From: an uncultured Pseudomonas sp.
GTDB taxonomy: Bacteria > Pseudomonadota > Gammaproteobacteria > Pseudomonadales > Pseudomonadaceae
Length of the DNA stretch: 17,606 bases
Assembly: GCF_946885885.1 (NCBI RefSeq)
Contig: NZ_CAMPHN010000090.1
Location: forward strand, 1-17,606
Reading direction: 5' to 3'
Shown: positions 1,431 to 12,821 of the stretch, piece by piece
Layout: every line of letters starts with the position of its first letter
How positions within the stretch are numbered: the stretch's first letter is position 1
Notes under the pieces: model-generated
The model's input: the letters and a program-made list of their open reading frames with translations, nothing else
Database searches by the model: none
What the model was told of the DNA's origin: nothing
Position numbers and translations under genes: made by a program

Positions 1431-1554
1431 GAACGCTCCCGAGTAATCCACATCGGGCGAGCACGCATCTGGGTACTGCACGGCTCCCCTCCAAGCAGTC
1501 TAGTCAGGATTCGAACGACAGGTCCTTTGCCAACAGTGAATCGACAGGCGGCAA

Positions 1555-1583
1555 AAAGGCCCCTTGATTAGAGGGGCCTTTCT
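1555..1583 (-). terminator. Rho-independent terminator of the OmpA-type lipoprotein gene
   Basis: Perfect 10-bp inverted repeat AAAGGCCCCT (1555-1564) and AGGGGCCTTT (1572-1581) with a 7-nt loop. Read on the minus strand, the stem is followed by a run of five T. It lies about 25 nt past the stop of the lipoprotein gene and upstream of the sensor gene, so it insulates the two. Confidence 0.9.
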
Positions 1584-1607
1584 GGGGAAGTGCGACAATT
1601 TCGAGCG

Positions 1608-2264
1608 TTACAGCGGACGCAGGTTGATCTCGACCCGACGATTCTGTGCACGACCGGCCTCGGTGGCATTGCTGGCGATCGGCTGGTTCGGGCCCGCACC
1701 GTAAGCGGAGATCCGCTGCGCCGGTACGCCGTTGCTGGTCAGGTAGGATGCGACACTTTGCGCACGGCGATTGGACAGGTTCTGATTCAACTCCAGGGAA
1801 CCAGTGCTGTCGGTATGACCGACAATATCGATGCCGTTCTTGTCGAACTCCTTGAACACCAGCACTAGGGAATTCAATGTCGAATAAAAGCCGCTGGAAA
1901 TATCCGCCGAGTTGCTGGCGAAGGTGATATTGCCCGGCATGATCAGTGTCAGCTCGTCGCCGTTGCGCTGCACTTGCACGCCGGTGCCTTGCAGGGTTTG
2001 CCGCAGCTTGGCCTCTTGGGTGTCGACGTAATAGCCATAGCCGCCGCCCGCCGCACCGCCCACCGCGGCACCGATCAAGGCGCCCTTGGCACGGTCTTTC
2101 TTGCTCGAGGTGGCGGCACCGATCACGGCGCCCGTCACGGCGCCCACACCGCCATAAATCCCCGCCTTGCCCGCTTCGCGCTCGCCGGTGTAAGGGTTGG
2201 TGGTGCAGCCCGCCAACAGCGACAGACCGAGGGTTGCAAATGCCAGATTTCGCCACATGTTCAT
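1608..2264 (-). CDS. OmpA-family outer-membrane lipoprotein with glycine zipper (YiaD-like)
   Basis: 218 aa. A short lipoprotein signal ends in the lipobox LLAGC, with Cys20 as the lipidation site. Residues 33-78 are a Gly/Ala-rich zipper (GGVGAVTGAVIGAA, then GALIGAAVGGAAGGGYGY) that may insert into or pack against the membrane. Residues about 103-218 are an OmpA C-terminal peptidoglycan-binding domain, with the signature N160..LS..RA..V...L and the binding residues expected from the family, Asp152 in GHTDS and Arg209 in NRRVEI. The mature protein is expected to anchor the outer membrane to the cell wall. The start is fixed by GGAAG 5 nt upstream; an ATG two codons later is less well placed. 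It is followed by a strong terminator, and its upstream neighbour (metallo-hydrolase) is 108 nt away on the same strand. The related E. coli protein is YiaD; orthology is not certain from sequence alone. Confidence 0.93.
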   Translation of the reverse strand: MNMWRNLAFATLGLSLLAGCTTNPYTGEREAGKAGIYGGVGAVTGAVIGAATSSKKDRAKGALIGAAVGGAAGGGYGYYVDTQEAKLRQTLQGTGVQVQRNGDELTLIMPGNITFASNSADISSGFYSTLNSLVLVFKEFDKNGIDIVGHTDSTGSLELNQNLSNRRAQSVASYLTSNGVPAQRISAYGAGPNQPIASNATEAGRAQNRRVEINLRPL

Positions 2265-2372
2265 AGGTACTTCCTTTGCTTTTTTGGTGTTAGTGCTTAG
2301 GGTCCGCCTGAGGGCTTGGACGCCCGGACAGCGGCTTAGTTCAGTCGATTGGCTATCAATGTGCTATCGGGT

Positions 2373-3017
2373 TCACGCACGAACGAAAGGGTTCTCGCGC
2401 ATCTCGTCGCCCAAGCGGGTATCGACGCCGTGCCCGGTCACGACGGTGGCGTCCTCGTCCAGGCTATACAGGCGCTGCTTGATCGAGCGCTCGATGGTGG
2501 CGTAATCGCCGCCCCACAGATCGGTACGGCCGATACCTCGGCGAAACAGCGTGTCGCCGGCAATCAGCAGCTTGTCCTCGGGGAACCAGAAACTCATCGA
2601 CCCTGGCGTGTGCCCCGGCGTGTGCAACGCCACCCCGCATCCGCAATCGAGCGCCTGATCGTCGGCAAGCCAATGATCCGGCGCCGGCACGGGGGTGTAA
2701 GGCACGCCGAACATACGGCATTGCATTTCCAGGTTGTCCCAAAGGAACAGGTCCTCCTTGTGCAGGTGCAAGGTCGCGCCGGTCTTCTCCTTCATCTGCC
2801 CGGAAGCGAGGAAGTGATCCAGATGCGCATGGGTATGGATGATGCTCACCACCTTCAAGCCGTGGGCGTCCAGCCGCGCCATGATCGATTCCGGATTGCC
2901 GCCCGGGTCGACCACTATGGCTTTCTTGGTCACGGGGTCGCCGATGATCGTGCAGTTGCACTGCAAAGGCCCGACAGGGAAGGTTTCGCGGATTAGCGCA
3001 ATTTTAGTGGCTTGCAT
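2373..3017 (-). CDS. MBL-fold metallo-hydrolase, glyoxalase II-like (YcbL type)
   Basis: 214 aa, the short form of the glyoxalase II family without the C-terminal helical substrate-binding domain. The metal-binding signature HTHAHLDH is at residues 61-68, with further ligands His136 (in TPGHTPGS), Asp155 (in GDTLF) and His196 (in TGHG), so the dinuclear metal site is complete. Family members hydrolyse thioesters such as S-lactoylglutathione or related substrates; the physiological substrate of YcbL-type enzymes is not settled. It is expected to be cytosolic, since there is no signal peptide. The start is supported by GGAG about 6 nt upstream. The region just upstream of the start contains the left copy of the direct repeat that bounds the defence island, so its native promoter may lie within or beyond that repeat. 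Confidence 0.93.
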   Translation of the reverse strand: MQATKIALIRETFPVGPLQCNCTIIGDPVTKKAIVVDPGGNPESIMARLDAHGLKVVSIIHTHAHLDHFLASGQMKEKTGATLHLHKEDLFLWDNLEMQCRMFGVPYTPVPAPDHWLADDQALDCGCGVALHTPGHTPGSMSFWFPEDKLLIAGDTLFRRGIGRTDLWGGDYATIERSIKQRLYSLDEDATVVTGHGVDTRLGDEMRENPFVRA

Positions 3018-3040
3018 GGGGGCTCCGGCAGGTTGAATGA

Positions 3041-3137
3041 CACATTTGCGGCACGCTCGACATGGAAAACGTTAACCAAGGACGGTCTATATCAATAAGG
3101 GACATGCCCAAATCAGATGTAAAGGTTGGCCCCAACA
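3041..3137 (+). repeat. Left direct repeat bounding the RM/Abi island
   Basis: The first 44 nt (3041-3084, beginning CACATTTGCGGCACGCTCGA) are identical to 10815-10858 in the same orientation. The similarity then continues imperfectly for about 50 nt with one 4-nt length difference, ending around CCCAACAG here and CCCGACAG in the other copy. Nothing repeats to the left of 3041, so the boundary is sharp. No integrase, transposase or recognisable IS end accompanies it. Confidence 0.9.
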
Positions 3138-3250
3138 GCCACGCATATTCAATAGCCAGAAGGCAGTCCTTGCTCGCGCATGATTGAGACAGGGCGACAC
3201 CACCACTCAGTTGGTTGAATTGGCCAGGCAAGAGAAGATGTGCAACCTCT

Positions 3251-3272
3251 TTGGGCAAGACGCCCCGCCCAA
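3251..3272. promoter_or_regulatory. Inverted repeat upstream of hsdR, possible operator
   Basis: TTGGGC (3251-3256) and GCCCAA (3267-3272) form a 6-bp palindrome with a 10-nt spacer about 90 nt before the hsdR start. It could be an operator or a short hairpin in the hsdR leader. No clear -35/-10 pair was identified in the rest of 3138-3362, which otherwise shows no gene. Confidence 0.25.
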
Positions 3273-3362
3273 TCAATACCAAACAAGGTACATTTACCCC
3301 CATCGAGCACGATCAGCAGTGCCGGAATGGAGAGACCATCTCGGTTTAAGGAAAATTGGGGT

Positions 3363-5732
3363 ATGGATAAGAAGTCGCTTTCCGAGCGGGACATCTGCAG
3401 TAAGTACATCGCCCCAGCCATCCAGCAAGCCGGCTGGAACATGCACAAGCAGGTGCGCGAGGAAGTCAGCTTTACCAAGGGCCGCATTATCGTTCGTGGC
3501 AAGCTGCACAGCCGAGGCGAATCACGCCGAGCCGACTTTATCCTCTATCACCAAGCCAACCTGCCCATCGCCGTGATCGAGGCGAAGGACAACAAGCACT
3601 CCGTTGGCTCCGGCATGCAGCAGGCCCTGGGCTATGCCGAAGCGTTGGATGTGCCGTTCGTGTTCTCCAGCAATGGCGATGGCTTTCTGTTCCATGACCG
3701 CAGTGGTACTGGCGAGCAGACCGAAACCGAACTCAGCCTCGACCAGTTCCCCGGCCCGGCTGAACTCTGGCAGCGCTACTGCCAATGGAAGGACCTAGAC
3801 GGCCAGGCTCAACACAAGATCGAAGCGCCCTACTACGACGATGGCTCCGGGCGCATGCCGCGCTATTACCAGATGAACGCGATCAACCGCACGGTTGAGG
3901 CCGTGGCCCGTGGGCAAGATCGAGTGCTGCTGGTCATGGCCACCGGCACCGGCAAGACCTATACCGCCTTCCAGATCATCTGGCGGCTGTGGAAGTCCAA
4001 GCAGAAGAAACGCATCCTTTTTCTCGCCGACCGCAACATCCTGGTCGACCAGACCAAGAACAACGACTTCAAGCCCTTCGGCCAGGCGATGACCAAGATC
4101 GCCAAACGGCAGATCGATACCTCCTACGAGATCTACCTGTCGCTCTATCAGGCCGTGACCGGCGCTGAAGAAGAGATGAACATCTACAAGCAGTTCTCCC
4201 GCGACTTCTTCGACCTGATCGTGATCGACGAATGCCACCGCGGCAGCGCAGCTGAGGATTCCGCCTGGCGTGAGATTCTCGACTATTTCACCAACGCCAC
4301 CCACGTCGGCCTCACCGCCACGCCGAAGGAAACCAAGGACGTTTCCAGCATTACCTACTTCGGTGAGCCGGTGTACAGCTACACCTTGAAACAGGGCATC
4401 GAAGACGGATTTCTTGCGCCCTACAAAGTGGTGCGTATTGATTTTGACAAAGACCTTCAAGGCTGGAGGCCGCCCAAAGGCATGCTCGACAAGAACGGCG
4501 AGCTGATCGAAGACCGCATCTACAACCTCAAGGACATGGATCGCACCCTAGTCATCGAGGCGCGTACCCAACTGGTCGCGCAGAAGGTCACCGAGTTCCT
4601 CAAAGCCACCGACCCGTTCCAGAAAACCATCGTCTTCTGCGACGACATCAACCATGCCGAACGCATGCGCCAGGCCCTGGTCAACCTCAACCCCGAGCGC
4701 GTGGCCGAGAACCGCAAGTACGTTATGCGCATCACCGGCGATGACCAGGAAGGCAAGGCCGAGCTGGATAACTTTATCAACCCGGAAGAGCGCTACCCGG
4801 TTATCGCAACCACCAGCAAGCTGATGACCACCGGCGTCGATGCCCAGACCTGCAAGCTGATTGTGCTCGACCAGCACATCAAGTCGATGACCGAGTTCAA
4901 GCAGATCATCGGTCGCGGCACCCGCATCAACGAGGATTACGGCAAGTACTGGTTCACCATCATGGACTTCAAGAAGGCCACCGAGCTGTTCGCCGACCCG
5001 GCCTTCGATGGCGATCCCGTTGTGATTTACGAGCCAGGGTCAGACGAGCCACCTGTGCCACCCGAGGAGCCTGAGGGAGGCGACACAGAGCAACCAGGCA
5101 GCGGAGAAGACTGCCCCACCACTGCAGGGCCTGGCGAAGGTGGTGGTAGCGAAAACCCACGCATCAAATATGTCGTAGCAGGAGTACCGGTCTACGTCAT
5201 CGCCGAGCGTGTGCAGTATTACGGCCCGGATGGTCGACTGATCACCGAATCGCTGCACGATTACACCCGCGCCTGCGTGCAGAAGCAGTTCGCCTCGCTG
5301 GATGACTTCCTGCGCCATTGGAGTGATGCCGAGCAGAAGAAGGCCATCATCGACGAAATGGCCGCCCAGGGTGTGATGTGGGAAGCCCTGGCCGAAGAGG
5401 TGGAAAAGAAACAGGGCAAACCACTAGATCCGTTCGACCTGATCTGCCACGTCGCCTTCGATCAGCCAGCCCTGTCTCGCCGCGAGCGCGCCGAACAAGT
5501 GAAAAAGCGTAATTACTTTGCCAAGTATTCCGGTGCAGCCCGCCAGGTGCTGGAGGCGCTGCTGGATAAATACGCTGATACCGGCATCGAGCACATCGAG
5601 GACATCAAAATCCTCCAGCTCGACCCCTTCAGCCAGATCGGTGCGCCCATCGAGCTGGTCAAGGCCTTTGGCGGCAAGGCCGGCTACAACCAGGCCATCC
5701 ATGAACTGGAAGACGAGCTTTACGCCAGTTAG
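3363..5732 (+). CDS. hsdR: Type I restriction enzyme, endonuclease/translocase subunit HsdR (EcoEI-like)
   Basis: 789 aa from the ATG at 3363, close to the size of EcoEI-type R subunits. AAGGA lies 10 nt upstream. An in-frame ATG at 3327 is possible, but the protein similarity seems to begin at [11 protein letters not shown]-terminal PD-(D/E)xK nuclease core: Asp58 and Glu73-Ala-Lys75 (VIEAK). Superfamily 2 helicase motor: Walker A ATGTGKT (193-199), DECH box (289-292), TATP motif III (318-321), QIIGRGTR motif VI (514-521). Residues about 559-598 are a Pro/Glu/Gly-rich linker, followed by a helical C-terminal domain (EcoEI_R_C-like) that should bind the methylase core. With HsdM and HsdS it translocates and cleaves DNA unmethylated at the recognition site. 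All catalytic residues are present, so it appears intact. It is first in the hsdR-hsdM-hsdS-abiF order. Confidence 0.96.
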
Positions 5733-5748
5733 CCGACATTACCCGTAG

Positions 5749-5776
5749 GGTGGGCAACGGCGCAGCCTTGCCCACC
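5749..5776. repeat. GTAGGGTGGGC-type intergenic hairpin between hsdR and hsdM
   Basis: Perfect 9-bp inverted repeat GGTGGGCAA (5749-5757) and TTGCCCACC (5768-5776) with a 10-nt loop, preceded by CCGTA. There is no T-run, so it is not a standard terminator. From general knowledge, GTAGGGTGGG...CCCACC sequences are dispersed short repeats in many gammaproteobacteria; that this copy belongs to such a family is inference. A TACAAT hexamer at 5795-5800 could be a weak -10 for hsdM, but no good -35 is spaced for it. Confidence 0.6.
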
Positions 5777-5833
5777 AGCATCAGCCAATCCCGCTACAAT
5801 CCCCCGCTTTGCCGCACCTGCCGAGAATTCGTT

Positions 5834-7303
5834 ATGTCGATCAGCTCCACCATCAAATCCATTCAGGACATCATGCGCAAAGACGTCGGCGTCGATGGCG
5901 ACGCCCAGCGCATCGGCCAGCTGGTCTGGCTGTTGTTCCTGAAGATCTTCGATGACCGCGAGCTGGAATGGGAGCTGATGGACGACAACTACCGCTCGCC
6001 CATTCCCGAGAGCTGCCGCTGGCGCACCTGGGCCGCCGATCCGGAAGGCATGACCGGTGACGACCTCAAGGGTTTTATCGACAACAACCTGTTCCCCCAA
6101 CTGCAGAACCTGCACGAGTACAGCAACACGCCGTCCGCCTTCGTGGTGCGCAGCGTGTTTGAAGACGCCTACAACTACATGAAATCCGGCCAGCTACTGC
6201 GCCAGGTGGTCAACAAGATTCAGGAAGGCGTGGACTTCAACAAAGCCCAGGAGCGCCACGAGTTCGGCAACCTCTACGAGCAACTGCTGCGCGACCTGCA
6301 GAACGCCGGCAACGCCGGTGAGTTCTACACCCCGCGCCCGGTCACCGAATTTATGGTGCGCATGGTCGACCCCAAGCTGGAGGAAAAGGTCATGGATCCG
6401 GCCTGCGGCACCGGCGGTTTCCTCACTTGTGCCATCGAGCACAAGCGCAGCCGCTATGTAAAAACCGCCGAGGACGAGCGCACCCTGCAAGCCAGCATCT
6501 TTGGCGTGGAGAAAAAGCCGCTGCCGCACCTGCTGGCCACCACCAATATGATCCTGCACGGCATCGAGGTGCCCAGCCAGATCCGCCACGACAACACCCT
6601 GAGCAAACCGCTGATCAGCTGGGGCCCGAGCGAGCGCGTGCACTGCATCGTCGCCAACCCGCCGTTCGGCGGCATGGAAGAAGACGGCATCGAAACCAAC
6701 TTCCCCGCCGCCTTCCGCACCCGCGAAACCGCTGACCTGTTTCTAGTGCTAATCATGCAGCTGCTCAAGGACGGTGGCCGCGCCGCCGTGGTGCTGCCAG
6801 ACGGCTTCCTGTTCGGCGAAGGCATCAAAAGCCGCATCAAGGAAAAACTGCTTACCGAGTGCAACCTGCACACCATCGTTCGCCTGCCCAATGGCGTGTT
6901 CAACCCCTACACCGGCATCAAGACCAACCTGCTGTTTTTCACCAAGGGCACACCGACCAAACAGGTGTGGTTCTACGAACATCAGTACCCGGCCGGCGTG
7001 AAGAACTACTCCAAGACTCGCCCCATGCGCATCGAAGAATTCGCCGTCGAGGAAGCCTGGTGGGGCAACGAGGCCGATGGCTTTGCCGCACGGATGGAGA
7101 ACGAATTCGCCTGGCAGGTCAGCGTCGAAGAGCTGCAAGCTCGCAACTGGAACCTGGACTGCAAAAACCCGCATATCGGCGAGCAGGTCAGCCACGACCC
7201 GGACGAGTTGCTGCGCAACTACGCCAGCCTGCAAGGCGAGATCAACGACCTACGCGACCAACTGAAAGCAGTGCTGACCGAAGCCCTGGAGCGCCAGGTA
7301 TGA
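5834..7303 (+). CDS. hsdM: Type I DNA adenine methyltransferase subunit HsdM
   Basis: 489 aa, essentially the length of EcoEI-class HsdM. N-terminal helical HsdM_N domain (residues about 3-150), then the N6-adenine methylase core: EFYTPRPV (163-170), SAM-binding motif I DPACGTGGF (188-196) and catalytic motif IV NPPF (275-278). The C-terminal region, about 450-489, is helical and should contact HsdS. Two copies normally pair with one HsdS to methylate one adenine on each strand of a bipartite site. The ATG at 5834 has only a weak ribosome site (GAGAA), and 101 nt separate it from hsdR, so it may have its own expression signal. Its stop overlaps the hsdS start (ATGA), indicating translational coupling of M and S. 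Confidence 0.96.
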   Translation: MSISSTIKSIQDIMRKDVGVDGDAQRIGQLVWLLFLKIFDDRELEWELMDDNYRSPIPESCRWRTWAADPEGMTGDDLKGFIDNNLFPQLQNLHEYSNTPSAFVVRSVFEDAYNYMKSGQLLRQVVNKIQEGVDFNKAQERHEFGNLYEQLLRDLQNAGNAGEFYTPRPVTEFMVRMVDPKLEEKVMDPACGTGGFLTCAIEHKRSRYVKTAEDERTLQASIFGVEKKPLPHLLATTNMILHGIEVPSQIRHDNTLSKPLISWGPSERVHCIVANPPFGGMEEDGIETNFPAAFRTRETADLFLVLIMQLLKDGGRAAVVLPDGFLFGEGIKSRIKEKLLTECNLHTIVRLPNGVFNPYTGIKTNLLFFTKGTPTKQVWFYEHQYPAGVKNYSKTRPMRIEEFAVEEAWWGNEADGFAARMENEFAWQVSVEELQARNWNLDCKNPHIGEQVSHDPDELLRNYASLQGEINDLRDQLKAVLTEALERQV

Positions 7304-9603
7304 CAGCGTTGCTCACCGATAATCTGCCGCTGCTGGCCGGTGCGCCCAATGGCGTTAAAAAACTGCGTGAGCTAATTCTGGAACTGGCGGTGCGCGGGAA
7401 GTTGGTGGCGCAAGATCCCAGTGATGAGCCGGCCAGTGAGTTGCTTAAGCGGATTGCCGAGGAAAAGGCGCGCTTGGTGGTTGAGGGGAAGATCAAGAAG
7501 CAAAAAGACCTGACTGATGCACCTGAACCGGCAATTACATTCCCATTGCCGGTCGGATGGGCGGCAACCTCAATTGGTGAGGCAACGATTTGCCGTGATG
7601 GCGAACGAGTACCCGTTTCCCAAGCCGAACGAGACGGTCGGGACAAGGTTTTCGACTACTACGGAGCATCAGGTGTTATCGATAAGATCGACGGCTACCT
7701 GTTCGATAAACCACTGTTGTTAGTTGGGGAAGACGGCGCAAATCTTATAAATCGCAGTACGCCTATCGCATTCATGGCACGCGGTCGTTATTGGGTGAAT
7801 AACCATGCCCACGTGCTTGATGGCATAAGCGAGGAGTTACTTCTCTACATAGAGCTTTATTTCAACGCCATTGATCTAAAGCCATATGTGACCGGAACGG
7901 CTCAGCCGAAGATGAACCAGTCCAAAATGAATGGCATTCCGGTAGGTCTTCCACCTGCGGCCGAACAACACCGCATTGTCGCCAAAGTTGATGAACTGAT
8001 GGCTCTGTGCGACCGCCTGGAAGCCCAGCAGGCCGACGCCGAAAGCGCCCACGCCCAACTGGTACAAGCGCTGCTCGACAGCCTGATCCAGGCCAGCGAC
8101 GCCACCGATTTCGCCACCAACTGGCAACGCCTGGCCGAACACTTCCACACTCTGTTCACCACCGAACCCAGCATCGACGCCCTCAAGCAAACCCTGCTGC
8201 AACTGGCCGTGATGGGCAAACTGGTGCCACAAATCCCCAGCGATCAGCCGGCCAGTGAACTGCTCAAGCGAATTAACGAGGAAAAGGCTCGGCTGGTGGC
8301 CGAAGGTAAGCTCAAGAAGCAGAAGCCGCTGGCGGAGATCGCTGAGGTAGAAAAATCGTTTGAGTTACCGGAGAAATGGGAGTGGGTTCGCCTAGAGGAA
8401 ATTGCGCAAGTAGGTACGGGGGCAACCCCACTTAGAACAAACCCTAAGTATTTTGAGCCAGCAACGATTAACTGGGTGACTAGTGGCGAGACGTCACAAG
8501 ACCACATCCATGCGACAGAACAGAAAGTTTCGCCTCTTGCACTAACGGAAACAAATCTGACCGTTTACCCACCGCACACGTTGGTCATCGCCATGTACGG
8601 TCAAGGAAAAACACGAGGGCAGATTTCTGAGCTTTTGATTGATGCCTGCACAAATCAGGCGTGTGCTGCAATCCAAATGTTTGATCAGGACGAATCACAT
8701 AGGCGTTACGTGAAGTATTTCTTCGTTAAAAGCTATGACGACATTCGTTTGCTTGCAGCTGGTGGAGCACAGCCGAACCTAAATCTGGGGAAAATTAAAG
8801 AAACTGTTCTCCCGCTCCCCCCTGCTGCCGAACAACACCGCATCGTCGCCAAAGTCGATCAGCTCATGGCCCTCTGCGACCAACTGAAGACCCGCCTAAC
8901 CCAGGCCCGCCAACTGAACGAAAAACTGGCTAGCACCCTAGTCGAACATGCCCTTGCCGACGATGGACAGCAGGCATCCGTTACCACTGATCAAAAAGTC
9001 GCCCGCACCCTACTCGCCGCTGAAATCACTCACCAGTTGCATGGCCAACGCACCTTCGGCCAGCGCAAGCTGCAGAAAGTTATCTATCTGGCCGAGCATG
9101 CGGCCAGGCTCGACGCTGTACAGGGTAACTACTTGCGCGATGCAGCCGGGCCCCATGATCGCCAACTGATGAATCAGGTCGAGAACGAGCTATGCAACCG
9201 CCAGTGGTACGAGTGCATCGACCGCGAAACCTTTGGTCATGCCTACCGTCCGCTTGCCCAGGCAGGGCAACATCGGCAGGCGTATGCCAGCGCCTGGTCG
9301 ACTGCCGAGCGGGCCATCATTGAGCAGGTTATCGAGCTGATGCGGGACTGGGATACGGATCGCTGCGAAATGACCGTAACGCTCTACGCCGCCTGGAACG
9401 ACTTTATCCTCGAAGGCCGCCCGGTTACCGATGAGGCCATCGTCGACGAAGTCATGCACAGCTGGAACGACGCCAAGCTGCGCTTCGGCAAAGACGAATG
9501 GCTGGCAGTACTCGCCAGGATGAAAAAGCAGGAACTCCTGATACCCACCGGCTTTGGCCAACGCACCACGGGCGGCATGCTCAGCTTGCCCGGTTTCGAG
9601 TAG
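7300..9603 (+). CDS. hsdS: Type I specificity subunit HsdS with C-terminal Panacea/SocA-like extension
   Basis: 767 aa, longer than usual HsdS proteins (about 400-600 aa). The start overlaps the hsdM stop in ATGA. Layout: conserved helix region 22-69; target-recognition domain 1 about 85-216; conserved region PPAAEQHRIVAKVDELMALCD about 217-290; a second copy of the first helix region at 295-342; target-recognition domain 2 about 358-505; and a second PPAAEQHRIVAKVDQLMALCD at about 507-527, leading into a coiled region. The two recognition domains differ and read the two halves of the DNA site; their DNA is visibly more AT-rich than the conserved parts. Residues about 564-767 are an added domain, with FGQRKLQKVIYLAEH at 586-600, RDAAGPHDRQLM at 613-624 and a helical tail. 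This resembles the KLQKLLY...GP pattern of the Panacea (DUF4065/SocA) fold. The sequence is in frame throughout with no sign of decay. Confidence 0.95.
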   Translation: MTALLTDNLPLLAGAPNGVKKLRELILELAVRGKLVAQDPSDEPASELLKRIAEEKARLVVEGKIKKQKDLTDAPEPAITFPLPVGWAATSIGEATICRDGERVPVSQAERDGRDKVFDYYGASGVIDKIDGYLFDKPLLLVGEDGANLINRSTPIAFMARGRYWVNNHAHVLDGISEELLLYIELYFNAIDLKPYVTGTAQPKMNQSKMNGIPVGLPPAAEQHRIVAKVDELMALCDRLEAQQADAESAHAQLVQALLDSLIQASDATDFATNWQRLAEHFHTLFTTEPSIDALKQTLLQLAVMGKLVPQIPSDQPASELLKRINEEKARLVAEGKLKKQKPLAEIAEVEKSFELPEKWEWVRLEEIAQVGTGATPLRTNPKYFEPATINWVTSGETSQDHIHATEQKVSPLALTETNLTVYPPHTLVIAMYGQGKTRGQISELLIDACTNQACAAIQMFDQDESHRRYVKYFFVKSYDDIRLLAAGGAQPNLNLGKIKETVLPLPPAAEQHRIVAKVDQLMALCDQLKTRLTQARQLNEKLASTLVEHALADDGQQASVTTDQKVARTLLAAEITHQLHGQRTFGQRKLQKVIYLAEHAARLDAVQGNYLRDAAGPHDRQLMNQVENELCNRQWYECIDRETFGHAYRPLAQAGQHRQAYASAWSTAERAIIEQVIELMRDWDTDRCEMTVTLYAAWNDFILEGRPVTDEAIVDEVMHSWNDAKLRFGKDEWLAVLARMKKQELLIPTGFGQRTTGGMLSLPGFE
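7363..7506 (+). repeat. hsdS: hsdS internal repeat A, copy 1
   Basis: Encodes residues 22-69. The DNA and protein closely match copy 2 at 8182-8325; both contain PASELLKRI and EEKARLV followed by a KKQK end. It is the structural spacer helix before recognition domain 1. Confidence 0.85.
7948..8019 (+). repeat. hsdS: hsdS internal repeat B, copy 1
   Basis: Encodes residues 217-240 (PPAAEQHRIVAKVDELMALCD). Nearly identical at the DNA level to 8815-8886, with differences mostly at third codon positions. It follows recognition domain 1. Confidence 0.85.
8182..8325 (+). repeat. hsdS: hsdS internal repeat A, copy 2
   Basis: Encodes residues 295-342 and pairs with 7363-7506. It precedes recognition domain 2. 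Confidence 0.85.
8815..8886 (+). repeat. hsdS: hsdS internal repeat B, copy 2
   Basis: Encodes residues 506-529 and pairs with 7948-8019. It follows recognition domain 2 and leads into the unusual C-terminal extension. Confidence 0.85.
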
Positions 9604-9607
9604 TCAA

Positions 9608-9664
9608 ATGGCAATCAGGAGGGCGAGGAGAACACGGCAGATGCTCAAGGTCACTTTCAAATGA
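9608..9664 (+). CDS. Possible 18-codon leader ORF coupled to abiF
   Basis: An ATG at 9608 opens MAIRRARRTRQMLKVTFK. A second in-frame ATG at 9641 is preceded by purine-rich AGGAGGGCGAGGAG at about 15-25 nt. The TGA stop (9662-9664) overlaps the two candidate abiF starts (ATGATG, 9661-9666). abiF itself has only a weak ribosome site, so re-initiation after this peptide is a plausible way to couple its translation. The size allows chance occurrence. Confidence 0.25.
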   Translation: MAIRRARRTRQMLKVTFK

Positions 9665-10659
9665 TGCCCGGCTACCCAAAACCCTGGAAAAGCTACCAGG
9701 AACAACTCGACCAGCTCATCGCTCGTGGTATGGGTGTCACAGACAATGCCAGGGCCCTGGATTACCTGGAGCGCATCGGCTACTACCGGCTGAGTGGTTA
9801 CTGGTACCCATTCCGCGAACGCGTCGACCTCTGCCTGCTCGATCCACAGACCAATGCAAAGCCGAAAAAGGTCAAAGTTGAGCGGCTGCCGCTGGACGAA
9901 TTCAAACCTGGAACGACCTTTCAGAACGCCGTAGACCTTTATGTATTCGACAAGAAATTGCGACTGCTCGTCCTGGATGCGCTGGAGCGTATCGAAATTG
10001 CCCTGCGTGTCGACATTTCACATGGCCTGGGCAAGCACCATAAGTTCGCCTACCTGAAGCCGGAGCTGTTTCACGAAAGTTTCTCCAGCAAGCTGGATAG
10101 CAAGACAGGGCTGACCAAACATCATGGCTGGTTGAGCAAGCATGCAGCGCTTATCAACCGCTCAAACGAGGACTTCATCCGCCATAACAAAGAAAAATAC
10201 GGATTGCCTTTGGCCGTTTGGGTCGCATGCGAAGTGTGGGATTTCGGGACACTATCAACGCTTTTCAATGGCATGACCGAAGCAGACCAAGACGCCATTG
10301 CCCAGCAATATGGAGTCAGTAATGGCCGGATTTTCGCCACATGGCTGCACAGCCTGAACTACCTACGTAACGTCTGTGCCCATCACAGCCGGCTGTGGAA
10401 CAGAAACGTTGTTGTTTACCCCCGCCTACCCTCGACAGAAGAAACACCTGCACTGAGCCCTTTCCAGGAGACACGTCAGCGCAAGCCTTTCGTTCTGTTA
10501 GTAATCATTCTGCAACTGATGAAGGTCATCAACCCGGCTTCTAGCTGGGGACAACGGTTGAAAACGCTGATGGAGCAGGATTTCCCAGACCTGAGCCACC
10601 TGGACCTCGATCTAAAAGGTATGGGCGCTCAAGAAAACTGGCAGGCACTCGACTGGTAA
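9661..10659 (+). CDS. abiF: Abi_2-family abortive infection protein (AbiD/AbiF-like HEPN RNase)
   Basis: 332 aa. N-terminal Abi_2 signature: KPWKSYQEQLDQLIARGM (7-24), then ALDYLERIGYYRLSGYWYPFR (32-52). Central helices carry LERIEIALRVDISH (108-121). The HEPN RNase motif RNVCAH (Arg236 to His241, R-x4-H) sits in LRNVCAHHSRLWNR. In this family HEPN proteins cleave RNA and stop growth on phage infection. An origin of Cas13 from AbiF-type RNA-guarded toxins has been proposed in recent literature; this is from memory and was not checked. It follows hsdS by 57 nt on the same strand, so it probably shares its transcript. The start could be 9661 or 9664 (ATGATG). No truncation is visible. The symbol is family-level; AbiD is an alternative name. 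Confidence 0.9.
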   Translation: MMPGYPKPWKSYQEQLDQLIARGMGVTDNARALDYLERIGYYRLSGYWYPFRERVDLCLLDPQTNAKPKKVKVERLPLDEFKPGTTFQNAVDLYVFDKKLRLLVLDALERIEIALRVDISHGLGKHHKFAYLKPELFHESFSSKLDSKTGLTKHHGWLSKHAALINRSNEDFIRHNKEKYGLPLAVWVACEVWDFGTLSTLFNGMTEADQDAIAQQYGVSNGRIFATWLHSLNYLRNVCAHHSRLWNRNVVVYPRLPSTEETPALSPFQETRQRKPFVLLVIILQLMKVINPASSWGQRLKTLMEQDFPDLSHLDLDLKGMGAQENWQALDW

Positions 10660-10669
10660 ACAGCAGGCA

Positions 10670-10727
10670 ATAAAAAACCCCTGAGCAATCTCGGCACCGA
10701 AGCGCTTCAACCGACAGGGGTCGTGTT
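10670..10727 (-). ncRNA. Candidate small RNA convergent with abiF (possible AbiF-associated ncRNA)
   Basis: Predicted transcript of about 58 nt on the minus strand, from about 10727 (7-8 nt past a TATAAT box) to the T-run at 10677-10672. It folds into one long hairpin: a 7-bp base of ACCCCTG (10721-10715) with CAGGGGT (10683-10677), then UCGG with CCGA (U-A, C-G, G-C and G-C pairs), then UUGAA/UUCGG (with G-U pairs) closed by a GCGC loop, and a 7-nt bulge on the 3' side. There is no reading frame of note. The promoter, compact structure and own terminator are all visible in the sequence. A role as antitoxin or guide-like partner of the AbiF HEPN RNase is inference from position and from recollection that an abiF-associated structured RNA motif has been described. 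Identity with that motif is not established here. Confidence 0.6.
10672..10721 (-). terminator. Intrinsic terminator of the minus-strand small RNA
   Basis: CAGGGG (10715-10720) and CCCCTG (10678-10683) form the stem base. On the minus strand it is followed directly by six T (10677-10672). In the plus direction there is no T-run, so it is a poor terminator for abiF. Confidence 0.75.
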
Positions 10728-10734
10728 AGGCGTG

Positions 10735-10762
10735 ATTATAGGCAGATGCGAATTTCCGTCAA
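10735..10762 (-). promoter_or_regulatory. Near-consensus sigma70 promoter for the small RNA
   Basis: On the minus strand, TTGACG (10762-10757) and a perfect TATAAT (10740-10735) are separated by 16 nt. Five of six and six of six consensus bases make this the best promoter noticed in the window. It points left, towards the abiF 3' end. Confidence 0.8.
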
Positions 10763-10790
10763 TCGCCGCCGGGCATAGGATCCTGATTTT

Positions 10791-10814
10791 CCATGCCGAC
10801 GCTACGATGCATGG
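10791..10814. repeat. Inverted repeat abutting the right direct repeat
   Basis: CCATGC (10791-10796) and GCATGG (10809-10814) with a 12-nt spacer end exactly one base before the right direct repeat begins at 10815. There is no equivalent beside the left copy. It could be a recombination or protein-binding site, or chance. Confidence 0.35.
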
Positions 10815-10907
10815 CACATTTGCGGCACGCTCGACATGGAAAACGTTAACCAAGGACGATCCATATCAGTGGCATGCCCACATCAGATATTGAGGTTGAC
10901 CCCGACA
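10815..10907 (+). repeat. Right direct repeat bounding the RM/Abi island
   Basis: Positions 10815-10858 are identical over 44 nt to 3041-3084. Similarity continues imperfectly to about 10907 (ATATCA, CATGCCCA, ATCAGAT, GAGGTTG and CCGACAG blocks) with a 4-nt shortening. The DNA from 10908 to the hxlR-type stop at 10971 holds nothing recognisable. Confidence 0.9.
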
Positions 10908-10970
10908 GAACCTGGCGATGCTGGAAACCGTATCCGGCGCTATCGGGCGTGGTGGTGCGAGACCGGCTGC

Positions 10971-11351
10971 TCAGCTCATTGCCCTATCCGAATATTCTTT
11001 GCGCGCCTCGCAAATCGCCCGGTGGTGTTCGTCCGCCCAGACGATCAGGCCTTTCAGCGGAACGAGAAAGGAGCGGCCCAACGCCGTCAGCTCGTATTCC
11101 ACACGCGGCGGCACTTCCGGGTAGAGGGTGCGCAGGATGAAGCCGTCCTGTTCCAGACGGCGCAACGTTCGGGAAAGCATCTGTTTGGAGATATCGCCGA
11201 CTTCTCGCGAAAGCGCGTTGAAACGCAAGGTTCCACCTTCCAAGGTTGCCAGGATGAGCAAGCTCCATTGATCGCCAATGCGATCGAGAATGTCCCGGAT
11301 GGGACAGGGTTGCTCGAATGTGAACGGCTCGCGCGCAATCGTTTCGGACAT
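10971..11351 (-). CDS. HxlR-family winged-helix transcriptional regulator
   Basis: 126 aa. HxlR signature: CPIRDILDRIGDQWSLLIL (16-34, with the family's near-invariant Cys16), then LRFNALSREVGDISKQMLSRTLRRLEQDGFILR (42-74, recognition helix and start of the wing), then PPRVEYELTALGRSFLVPL (81-99). Such regulators bind DNA as dimers and often sense aldehydes, quinones or oxidants through the N-terminal cysteine. The start at 11351 has GAGGAA about 10 nt upstream. It is divergent from the oxidoreductase gene at 11478, and the shared 126-nt gap contains candidate operators, so it most likely represses or activates that operon and itself. The frame stays open upstream to 12122, but that part is antisense to the oxidoreductase. 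Confidence 0.93.
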   Translation of the reverse strand: MSETIAREPFTFEQPCPIRDILDRIGDQWSLLILATLEGGTLRFNALSREVGDISKQMLSRTLRRLEQDGFILRTLYPEVPPRVEYELTALGRSFLVPLKGLIVWADEHHRAICEARKEYSDRAMS

Positions 11352-11368
11352 GATCAGTGGGTTCCTCA

Positions 11369-11386
11369 GGTCACATGACAGTGACC
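11369..11386. promoter_or_regulatory. Candidate HxlR-type operator palindrome
   Basis: Perfect inverted repeat GGTCAC (11369-11374), N6, GTGACC (11381-11386), centred 26 nt before the regulator's start codon in the divergent intergenic region. Spacing and symmetry suit a winged-helix dimer. Confidence 0.5.
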
Positions 11387-11442
11387 AGGTCGCTTGAAGA
11401 TGACTTCTTGTGGACGTTGTGGGCGCATCATAGACTCGACAC

Positions 11443-11459
11443 GGTCTACATTCCAGACC
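11443..11459. promoter_or_regulatory. Second inverted repeat in the divergent promoter region
   Basis: GGTCT (11443-11447), 7 nt, AGACC (11455-11459), located 19 nt before the oxidoreductase ATG. Its half-site GGTC matches that of the 11369-11386 palindrome, so it may be a second, weaker site for the same regulator. Confidence 0.35.
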
Positions 11460-11477
11460 AGATAGGAATCCAGAACC

Positions 11478-12101
11478 ATGGCACCTCACATGACACACAT
11501 TGCACTCATCGGCGCGTCCGGCAATGCCGGCTCGCGCATTCTCAAGGAACTGTCCGACCGCGGGCACAAGGTAACGGCGATCGCGCGCCATCCGGAAAAA
11601 ATTGCGGCGTTGCCCGGCGTAATCGCGAAACAGGGCGATGTATCCGACAAGGATGGCTTGTCTGCCCTGCTGAAGGGGCACGACGCGGTGATCAGTTCGG
11701 TGCATTTCCTCGGCAGCGATCCGCACACCCTGGTCGAAACCGTGCGCGCTTCGGGCGTCAAACGCTATCTGGTCGTCGGCGGCGCGGGCAGCCTGGAGGT
11801 CGCGCCAGGGCAGCGCCTGGTCGATCAACCGAGCTTCCCGGCGCAATACAAGCAGGAGGCGCTGGCTGGCGCGGCATTCCTCGATTTGTTGAAGAGGGTC
11901 GAGGATCTGGACTGGACCTTCCTCTCGCCGTCCGCCCTGTTCGTTCCCGGCGAGCGCACCGGCACCTTCCGCCGCGGCGGCGACCAACTCCTGGCGAACG
12001 AGGACGGTAGCAGCATTTCCTTCGAGGACTTCGCCATCGCCATGGTGGACGAGATCGAGCAGCCCCGACATCTGCGGCAACGCTTCACGGTCGGATACTG
12101 A
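11478..12101 (+). CDS. NAD(P)-binding oxidoreductase, atypical SDR / NmrA-like
   Basis: 207 aa. N-terminal Rossmann fold with the dinucleotide-binding glycine motif GASGNAGS at 12-19 and the strand IALIG before it. Later come GDV (53-55), which contacts the adenine in this family, and VKRYLVVGGAGSL (94-106). It lacks an obvious YxxxK pair in the classical SDR position, typical of the atypical NAD(P)H-binding group that includes quinone reductases and NmrA-like sensors. The start at 11478 is chosen for AGGA 10 nt upstream; an in-frame ATG at 11490 has no ribosome site. It is the first gene of a small plus-strand operon divergent from the HxlR regulator. Likely substrates are quinones or other electrophiles, by analogy only. 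Confidence 0.9.
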   Translation: MAPHMTHIALIGASGNAGSRILKELSDRGHKVTAIARHPEKIAALPGVIAKQGDVSDKDGLSALLKGHDAVISSVHFLGSDPHTLVETVRASGVKRYLVVGGAGSLEVAPGQRLVDQPSFPAQYKQEALAGAAFLDLLKRVEDLDWTFLSPSALFVPGERTGTFRRGGDQLLANEDGSSISFEDFAIAMVDEIEQPRHLRQRFTVGY

Positions 12102-12123
12102 TCCGGCGTTGCAGCGAATCAAT

Positions 12124-12148
12124 GCCGGCCCGAACGAACTGGGCCGGC
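12124..12148 (+). other. GC-rich hairpin between operon genes
   Basis: GCCGGCCC (12124-12131) and GGGCCGGC (12141-12148) form an 8-bp perfect stem with a 9-nt loop between the oxidoreductase stop and the DsbA-like start. With no T-run, it is more likely an mRNA-stability or attenuation element than a full terminator. Confidence 0.5.
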
Positions 12149-12176
12149 CATCTCACTGACGAAAGATCACAATGGC

Positions 12177-12821
12177 ATGACTGATACCCTGAGTTTCACC
12201 TATCTTTTCGATCCCATGTGCGGCTGGTGCTACGGCGCATCGCCAACGCTGGAGGCGCTTAAGGAGCGCGGTGGTTGTCGCGTCGACTTGGTTCCGACCG
12301 GACTCTTCGCCGACGCGGGCGCATTCGCGATGAACGACGCCTTCGCGGCCCACGCCTGGGACGCCGACCAGCGCATCGCGCGGCTTTCCGGCCAGCCCTT
12401 CAGCGAGGCCTATCGCCGCAATGTGCTGGGCAGCCGCAAAACCCGCGTCGATTCGGGGCCGGCAACGCTTGCGCTGACGGCCGTTCGCCTGACGGCTCCC
12501 GAGCAGGAGCTCGAAGCCCTCGCGGCCATTCAGCGCAGTCGCTATGTGGATGGGCGCGACAACGGGGACCCGACGGTCATCGCGGATGTTCTCGAAGCCC
12601 TGACGTTGAAGGATGCAGCTCTACGTTTCAGCGCCCCAGATGCGATTCTGCTATCCGCCAATCGCGCCCGCATCGAGAGCGGCCGCGCCGCAATGCGCCA
12701 TTTCGGCGCGCGCGGCGTTCCGGCCCTGATTGCCGCTCAGGGTCAGAATCGCCGTCTGGTCGACGCCAATGCGCTCTTTGGCGGCATCGAAGCCCTGCTC
12801 GCGAGCCTTGCCGCCGTTTGA
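12177..12821 (+). CDS. DsbA/FrnE-like thiol-disulfide oxidoreductase family protein
   Basis: 214 aa with a thioredoxin-fold start: FTYLFDPMCGWCYG, where Cys15-Gly-Trp-Cys18 is the CxxC redox site. A helical insertion follows, and the cis-proline loop is GVPAL (Pro182). There is no signal peptide, so unlike classical DsbA it should act in the cytosol, as FrnE-type proteins do. ATG 12177 has a weak ribosome site (GAAAG at about 10 nt); a nearby ATG at 12173 is out of frame and stops at once. It lies 75 nt after the oxidoreductase, separated by a hairpin, and 28 nt before the next gene. Position under an HxlR regulator suggests a role in redox or electrophile stress; the substrate is unknown. 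Confidence 0.88.
   Translation: MTDTLSFTYLFDPMCGWCYGASPTLEALKERGGCRVDLVPTGLFADAGAFAMNDAFAAHAWDADQRIARLSGQPFSEAYRRNVLGSRKTRVDSGPATLALTAVRLTAPEQELEALAAIQRSRYVDGRDNGDPTVIADVLEALTLKDAALRFSAPDAILLSANRARIESGRAAMRHFGARGVPALIAAQGQNRRLVDANALFGGIEALLASLAAV

Follow-up and report, generated by a model that had tools for sequence, protein, structure and literature searches.

A small-RNA gene facing abiF in an uncultured Pseudomonas encodes a predicted RNA antitoxin of a HEPN toxin

Among the closest described systems, AbiF of C. difficile is toxic and is neutralised in trans by the RCd22 RNA through direct binding (PMC12373285; this paper, PMC12737573 and PMC12165695 are cited throughout from partial texts). 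RCd22 lies upstream of abiF on the same strand, is co-transcribed with it, and contains two RF03085 motifs (PMC12373285), RF03085 being the abiF RNA of Rfam. In the PbAbiF-AbiFr complex (PDB 8VZ6), one RNA is bound per monomer, and the C and U of a single-stranded bulge block the RNase (PMC12737573; the complex is also covered in PMC12373285). PMC12165695 links AbiD/F to Cas13 and, in the text available, calls the function of the RNA unknown; the first-pass annotation of the present DNA had mentioned such an ancestral link, which is indeed drawn in all three papers. Type III systems (ToxIN, AbiQ, TenpIN, CptIN) likewise have an endoribonuclease toxin held by an RNA antitoxin, but in these the antitoxin comes from an array of repeats that lies upstream of the toxin gene and is transcribed together with it, and the structures of toxin and RNA are unlike those of AbiF (PMC12373285).

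The window (the whole 17,606-nt stretch of Pseudomonas DNA analysed here) resembles the AbiF-RCd22 pair as described in PMC12373285 in combining an Abi_2 HEPN protein that carries an R..xxxH site with a small structured RNA ending in a terminator. Unlike RCd22, the RNA is a single hairpin with its own promoter, lies downstream of abiF in convergent orientation, and is not an RF03085 RNA; supply of the RNA would thus depend on a separate promoter here, versus a leader with a leaky terminator in C. difficile. The features are as follows, where R1 is a covariance model of the RNA described below.

3240..5732, plus strand: hsdR, type I restriction endonuclease subunit, start provisional (Pfam ResIII, EcoEI_R_C, HSDR_N; PADLOC REase_I)
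5750..7303, plus strand: hsdM, type I methyltransferase subunit, start provisional (Pfam N6_Mtase, HsdM_N)
7294..9603, plus strand: hsdS, type I specificity subunit, start provisional (Pfam Methylase_S, two stretches)
9661..10659, plus strand: abiF, Abi_2 family HEPN protein of 332 aa, predicted RNase toxin (PF07751, 195.5 bits)
10757..10762, minus strand: -35 box TTGACG (sigma-70 promoter scan; 0.39 bits per base across relatives)
10735..10740, minus strand: -10 box TATAAT, 7 nt ahead of the AACACG leader (0.6 bits per base across relatives)
10670..10727, minus strand: predicted antitoxin RNA, about 58 nt (R1 69.0 bits, match 10672-10728; this copy is in the R1 training set)
10722..10727, minus strand: 5' leader AACACG (alignment of 65 rows)
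10715..10721, minus strand: 5' arm of the outer stem, which doubles as terminator stem (pairs with 10677-10683)
10710..10713, minus strand: 5' arm of the inner helix, covarying (pairs with 10686-10689)
10692..10707, minus strand: upper hairpin, variable yet covarying
10686..10689, minus strand: 3' arm of the inner helix, covarying (pairs with 10710-10713)
10684..10685, minus strand: unpaired CU facing U at 10714, a conserved asymmetric internal loop
10677..10683, minus strand: 3' arm of the outer stem (pairs with 10715-10721)
10672..10677, minus strand: terminator T-run of six T

The abiF gene starts 57 nt beyond the hsdS stop of the type I restriction locus. Its product carries the Abi_2 domain (PF07751, as listed), is labelled AbiD by PADLOC (221.6 bits), has no match in NCBIfam, and aligns along most of its length with a homologue of known structure, PbAbiF (8vz6, E 1.1e-34). 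The HEPN RNase motif R[NHD]xxxH is present as RNVCAH at residues 236-241, with R236 and H241 (window numbering) invariant in 27 aligned rows and the form R[ND]xxxH found in 114 of the 115 rows of the AbiF tree. An AlphaFold model of the protein has a mean pLDDT of 89.8, its low-confidence parts being the N terminus and about residues 51-80; compared with PbAbiF, the window protein has some 20 extra residues between positions 52 and 80.

Beyond the abiF stop, the minus strand from 10762 to 10670 is a complete RNA gene facing abiF, with a sigma-70 promoter, a hairpin RNA of about 58 nt and a terminator (the ends of the transcript being placed from the promoter and the T-run). All three elements had been claimed in the first-pass annotation, and each held up. 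The promoter, TTGACG-N16-TATAAT at 10762-10735, matches the consensus at 11 of 12 positions and is the only site of that quality (11/12 or better) in the 17.6-kb window, against a mean of 0.03 per first-order Markov sequence (n=200, with 6/200 sequences containing any such site); most related loci have 6 or 7 nt between the -10 box and the AACACG leader. RNA folding of 10725-10669 gives one hairpin (-22.7 kcal/mol, z -2.7), though folding energy alone is modest, since longer cuts drop to z -1.8 and -1.2. The six-T run of the terminator (10677-10672) ends 12 nt from the abiF stop codon at 10657-10659; the hairpin was absent from the output of a simple terminator scan, probably because loops in that scan were limited to 3-8. 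What places the RNA gene above chance is its conservation across AbiF loci.

The first-pass annotation had also named an RNA motif associated with abiF and proposed checking the window with its covariance model. Such a motif does exist in Rfam, but the window RNA is not an instance of it: no Rfam family was found for the RNA in a search of the window at the Rfam cut-offs, and RF03085 gave no match in 10500-10900 at E up to 10, nor at its curated cut-off (37 bits) in 20 of the 80 close AbiF loci described below. Since it lies below RF03085 scoring, the window RNA is not the described abiF motif, and its class is absent from Rfam. As a control, RF03085 was found in one of eight more distant AbiF loci (phage phiC2, 37.6 bits, upstream and sense), and in 7 of 17 Pseudomonas AbiF loci it scored 28.9-42.9 bits, with only L130 above 37. 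The window RNA nonetheless shares with RF03085 RNAs a position beside an abiF/Abi_2 gene, a GC outer stem and an asymmetric loop, and the RF03085-like RNAs of Pseudomonas loci also have a 5' AACAC or AATAC leader and a terminator.

The two kinds of RNA differ in position. R2, a model built from 25 upstream RNAs, gives RF03085-like matches in 35 loci at 20 bits or more, with the best match upstream and sense in 34 (most of these being training copies) and antisense, about 500 nt upstream of abiF, in L124 (21.9 bits), whereas the window RNA is downstream and convergent. On the window RNA itself, R2 gives a match that is in register yet weak (13.4 bits, E 1.5), and such weak in-register matches occur in six of the 27 convergent-type loci given to it (the window, L001, L006, L010, L045 and L114); R1 in turn matches nine upstream RNAs weakly and in register (E 0.1-1.9). 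Cross-detection is thus weak throughout (E 0.1-2 for R1, 1-6 for R2), with several matches off the RNAs at similar E, and is partly due to shared terminator features; the two classes may nonetheless share an ancestor, the balance tilting slightly that way. Two further upstream arrangements were seen. Locus L150 has two RF03085-like RNAs in tandem upstream of abiF in the sense direction (1272-1329 and 1432-1482, abiF strand; 46.8 and 58.9 bits), which recall the double motif of C. difficile RCd22. Another RNA type (GCGCCCGAUCCUCUGG... GUUCGGGCCUUCUU) lies upstream and sense in L115-L124, beside Pseudomonas AbiF genes of about 34-38% identity, and has no match there to R2 nor, in the 8 of these 10 loci that were searched with it, to RF03085.

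In contrast to type III systems, the window RNA is single, convergent and separately transcribed as predicted from its promoter. No short-repeat antitoxin array occurs in 9600-12200 (direct or inverted repeats of at least 18 nt are absent), R1 has a single match in the whole window, and the RNA is downstream on the opposite strand rather than upstream and co-transcribed with a terminator between it and the toxin. The position and RNA type of the window gene therefore differ from those of the described AbiF systems compared here. We found no description of convergent AbiF RNAs in the literature searched, though a prior description is possible.

Conservation was examined in 80 AbiF loci (the best 80 of 106 relatives, 43-96% identity), chosen by AbiF protein similarity alone. 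When the strand opposite abiF just past its stop was printed for these loci, the same RNA was seen in nearly all. The model R1, built from 65 distinct RNA copies including that of the window, matches 76 of these 80 best relatives, always on the strand opposite abiF, most of the matched copies belonging to its training set; L019, L078, L079 and L080 have no R1 match. Scores among the 80 loci are 46.9-81.7 bits, except in L068 (29.7) and L077 (26.7). R1 also matches copies outside the training set, for example in L020 (68.8), L022 (71.1) and L064 (58.9), and in L137 and L138 from the class survey described below. Among five plasmid loci fetched later, three have R1 (L170-L172), one of them in the alphaproteobacterium Rhizobium; L173, which ends at the record end, and L174 have no match, and L174 has a different hairpin, upstream of abiF on the sense strand. 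A plasmid search at the DNA level with 10560-10900 as query gave no match.

The rows of the alignment (65) and the copies of an information profile (66) were picked by a pattern that matches 72 of the 80 loci and fixes six of the first eleven RNA bases plus a T-run, so conservation of the leader and terminator is partly built in. A count made with no picking pattern gave a similar picture: with up to two mismatches allowed, the first 12 RNA bases, CAACACGGCCCC, are present at the 3' end of abiF, on the strand opposite to it, in 75 of 80 loci, and each control position (downstream sense, upstream sense and upstream antisense) gives one of 80. In the profile of the RNA gene, the first ten RNA positions hold 1.9-2.0 bits (partly pattern-fixed), the -10 region 0.6 and the -35 region 0.39 bits, and the promoter spacer and the flank beyond 0.03-0.17 bits. 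In the 72 pattern-picked loci, 0-48 nt separate the end of the RNA from the stop of abiF, except for L077 (-1) and the broken L075, and the R1 match overlaps the end of the abiF frame in L064 and L068.

One locus has several copies of the RNA. In L070 (Marinomonas rhodophyticola), positions 1467-4049 hold three R1 RNAs in tandem. Besides the copy at the end of abiF, there is one that follows a 216-aa protein whose Abi_2 match is weak (34.5 bits) and another that follows no clear gene; the 3' end of polA is repeated between them, which suggests tandem insertions at polA.

The aligned RNAs share a fold in which a seven-pair outer stem leads through the asymmetric U/CU loop to an inner helix of four pairs, topped by an upper hairpin that varies. 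Bases pair in 89.4% of the alignment cells, 11 of the 17 pairs show changes on both sides, and the covariation score (0.376) exceeds that of shuffled alignments (0.205; 0/500 as high) and of slid pairings (0.043-0.129); further pair types are no more numerous than in shuffled alignments (57/500 as high). All 65 rows agree in five of the six columns of the AACACG leader (A, A, C, A and G), three columns being pattern-fixed, and in the G and C of the loop GCU; for the U bases of the loop, agreement is 90% or higher. The terminator is retained in all 65 rows, its T-run being part of the picking pattern. Conservation of the hairpin beside related abiF genes was the test to which the first-pass annotation had tied its proposal, and the hairpin is conserved, with covariation, so that the proposal survives: an RNA antitoxin of a HEPN toxin is the reading that sequence comparison best supports. 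We put a probability of roughly 0.86 on the window unit being a stand-alone gene for an RNA antitoxin, about 58 nt long, of the adjacent AbiF toxin.

These patterns bear on what else the RNA might do. The first-pass annotation had offered, as a second option, antisense RNA made by read-through onto the abiF 3' end, and an antisense regulator in which the RNA or a read-through product pairs with the 3' end or 3' UTR of the abiF mRNA, lowering its level or translation, would suit a gene that starts from the other strand and comes to within 12 nt of the stop, to which a long abiF mRNA would be fully complementary. We regard this as improbable: compensatory changes preserve a hairpin that antisense pairing does not need, the unpaired bases are conserved too, the terminator present in 65 of 65 aligned rows (T-run pattern-picked) would limit read-through, and the RNAs of other AbiF genes are upstream and sense and so cannot be antisense. 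The outer stem and T-run do form an intrinsic terminator, and the unit could in principle be nothing else, a conserved terminator or roadblock with a fortuitous promoter that shields abiF from transcription arriving from the right; such a role has very little to commend it, given that promoter spacing, AACACG leader and U/CU loop are conserved, none of them needed by a terminator, and that different RNAs with a similar leader lie upstream of other AbiF genes. That AbiF would find targets with the variable upper part of the RNA, as a forerunner of the Cas13 crRNA, is suggested by the proposed Cas13 ancestry (PMC12373285, PMC12737573, PMC12165695, as far as their partial texts go) and is highly unlikely, as the variable part is a covarying hairpin and not a free spacer and 9600-12200 contains no repeats and no repeat-spacer array.

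The antitoxin reading makes a prediction about gene loss, namely that the toxin may be lost and the RNA kept but not the reverse, and the surveys agree with it in small numbers. We searched 199 genomes of the genus and 369 of the class with strict filters, by which weak matches are lost. In the genus survey, R1 was found in 14/199 genomes and AbiF (E 1e-10) in 43/199. All eight AbiF genes with at least 70% identity over their full length (one with an in-frame stop) adjoin R1; in G085, R1 finds nothing on the contig that bears a close but truncated AbiF (64-81% identity, open frame 185). Class-survey genomes with R1 (3/369, against 33/369 with AbiF) are exactly those with an AbiF of at least 58% identity, and the RNA is adjacent in each. 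Four of the 80 close AbiF genes are interrupted within the match by a stop or a frame break (L027, L043, L066 and L075), and all four keep the RNA.

The genus survey gave 15 RNA matches, eight beside AbiF genes of at least 70% identity and seven not. Three of the latter are strong (L094, L099 and L101; 68-76 bits) with no AbiF within 1.5 kb, and when their genomes were searched for AbiF, two gave no match and one a match of 52 residues. The other four (L102-L105) are weak at 33-47 bits, L103 lying beside a 23-residue AbiF remnant. By eye, the promoters of L099 and L101 have decayed and the terminator of L103 is broken; the orphan RNAs could be mere scars. Among their surroundings, the weak R1-like hairpin of L102 (1501-1557, 46.5 bits) lies just upstream of a gene that resembles the metallo-beta-lactamase-fold gene of the window (2373-3017), which flanks the restriction island, and is possibly a remnant at the same chromosomal site. 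In two Pseudomonas genomes, R1-like RNAs without AbiF, L099 (73.7 bits) and L104 (36.3 bits), adjoin the same dehydrogenase-like gene.

A natural separation of toxin and RNA was found in genome G570. Its AbiF locus, L019, has an intact abiF (68% identity) followed by the usual CAGGCAATAAAAAA and then by unrelated DNA, with conjugation-like genes further on (read by eye). We asked if a CRISPR had replaced the RNA in L019, and rejected the idea, repeats being absent. Elsewhere G570 has a full R1 RNA (80.5 bits, locus L168) with no AbiF in its 3 kb and an integrase-like gene adjoining. The sequence AATAAAAAA, the normal end of the RNA gene, is present on both sides (L019 2244-2262 and L168 1492-1501), which a mobile element inserted at the A-rich (T-run) end, the terminator, of the RNA gene would explain by splitting abiF from its RNA. 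This arrangement fits action of the RNA in trans, and is only suggestive since the genome is a metagenome bin.

More distant AbiF genes differ in where the RNA lies. Most of those examined below about 45% identity have an RNA-like hairpin, RF03085-like or related, upstream in the sense direction. We scanned 143 loci (138 distinct abiF genes) for a leader, stem and T-run, with a scanner devised after the sequences had been inspected and with the wrong strand as control. It gave 40 upstream-sense (29 with a -10 box) and 85 downstream-antisense hits (79 with a -10 box) in the expected places, against 10 upstream-antisense and 2 downstream-sense hits, none with a -10 box, in the control places; no locus of the 143 had strong hits in both expected places. 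Of the 138 genes, 21 were left without either label, eight of which get an RNA by R1 or R2 match and more by eye. The AbiF family thus has two RNA architectures, an upstream sense leader and a convergent downstream gene. Similar RNAs can occupy either place: those of L078, L080 and L142 (downstream, antisense) and of L079 and L174 (upstream, sense) have a similar leader, fold and CCUCU/GUAC loop (CCACU in L174), which suggests that the RNA itself moved.

In the AbiF tree, all members of the clade that has the R1 RNA (support 99/97) are convergent. A quick tree of 115 rows, 104 of them labelled, needs one change to the convergent form at a node that is unsupported, whereas a careful tree, which left out 42 of the 115 rows (long branches, or thinning of the convergent clade) and in which L142 was labelled convergent by eye, needs two changes, with one change in 35% of bootstraps. 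A single origin is therefore not retained, and among the sampled AbiF proteins the convergent form appears to have arisen once or twice; the upstream position would be ancestral, judging by its distribution in the unrooted tree.

Part of the AbiF protein was compared across the architectures. Residues 53-83 of the window protein (9817-9909) are lysine-rich and about 20 residues longer than in AbiF proteins with RF03085-like RNAs; the length of this segment seems to track RNA class, and the segment may therefore help to recognise the RNA. As a marker of convergent architecture, however, the insertion (residues 52-84) was rejected: its median length is 31 in 63 convergent rows and 10 in 41 upstream rows, with exceptions on both sides (27 in upstream L116, L120 and L123; 22-23 in convergent L078, L080 and L114).

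The gene context of abiF was also compared. An open frame of at least 100 codons ends near the abiF start in 69 of the 80 loci, with a gap of 60 nt or less in 36 of those 69, and these short gaps are compatible with a place for abiF late in an operon. The Methylobacter locus L172 has the order hsdS, abiF, RNA, hsdR. That the convergent form is mainly a feature of restriction loci was rejected as a general rule, since hsdS accounts for 13 of the 61 upstream frames scanned (of the 69).

From protein homology and by analogy between the RNAs, we infer that AbiF would be inhibited here as in the characterised AbiF systems. A strong constitutive promoter would keep the small hairpin RNA in excess, and the RNA would bind AbiF through its AACACG leader and U/CU internal loop, blocking the RNase site, with one RNA per monomer of a HEPN dimer if the complex resembles PbAbiF-AbiFr; the CU of the window loop is comparable to the C and U of the AbiFr bulge (PMC12737573, partial text) by analogy only. 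Phage shut-off or another stress that halts RNA supply would let the RNA decay, whereupon AbiF would cleave cellular RNA and growth would stop. Because the RNA gene has its own promoter, faces abiF and is single-copy, transcription of toxin and antitoxin would be uncoupled, and abiF can therefore sit in another operon, here behind hsdRMS. Convergent transcription might damp abiF expression as well.

What is new here is an RNA class missing from Rfam and an uncoupled, single-copy, convergent gene for it, whose antitoxin role is predicted. A broader scenario, to which we would give about even odds, is a superfamily of AbiF antitoxin RNAs with several classes, in which two classes or more moved out of the 5' leader of the toxin and became genes of their own, convergent with abiF and transcribed separately; leader control of the type III-like kind would thereby have given way to action in trans, freeing abiF to join operons such as type I restriction loci, and RNAs kept alone could serve as an antidote against incoming AbiF elements. 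For annotation, the R1 covariance model would allow AbiF antitoxins missed by Rfam to be found. A separately transcribed antitoxin would let the dosage of toxin and RNA vary independently. If AbiF is, as proposed, the ancestor of Cas13, its RNA partner would have passed from antitoxin to guide, and two architectures with several RNA classes in one family may offer a natural series for testing which RNA features are needed in binding.
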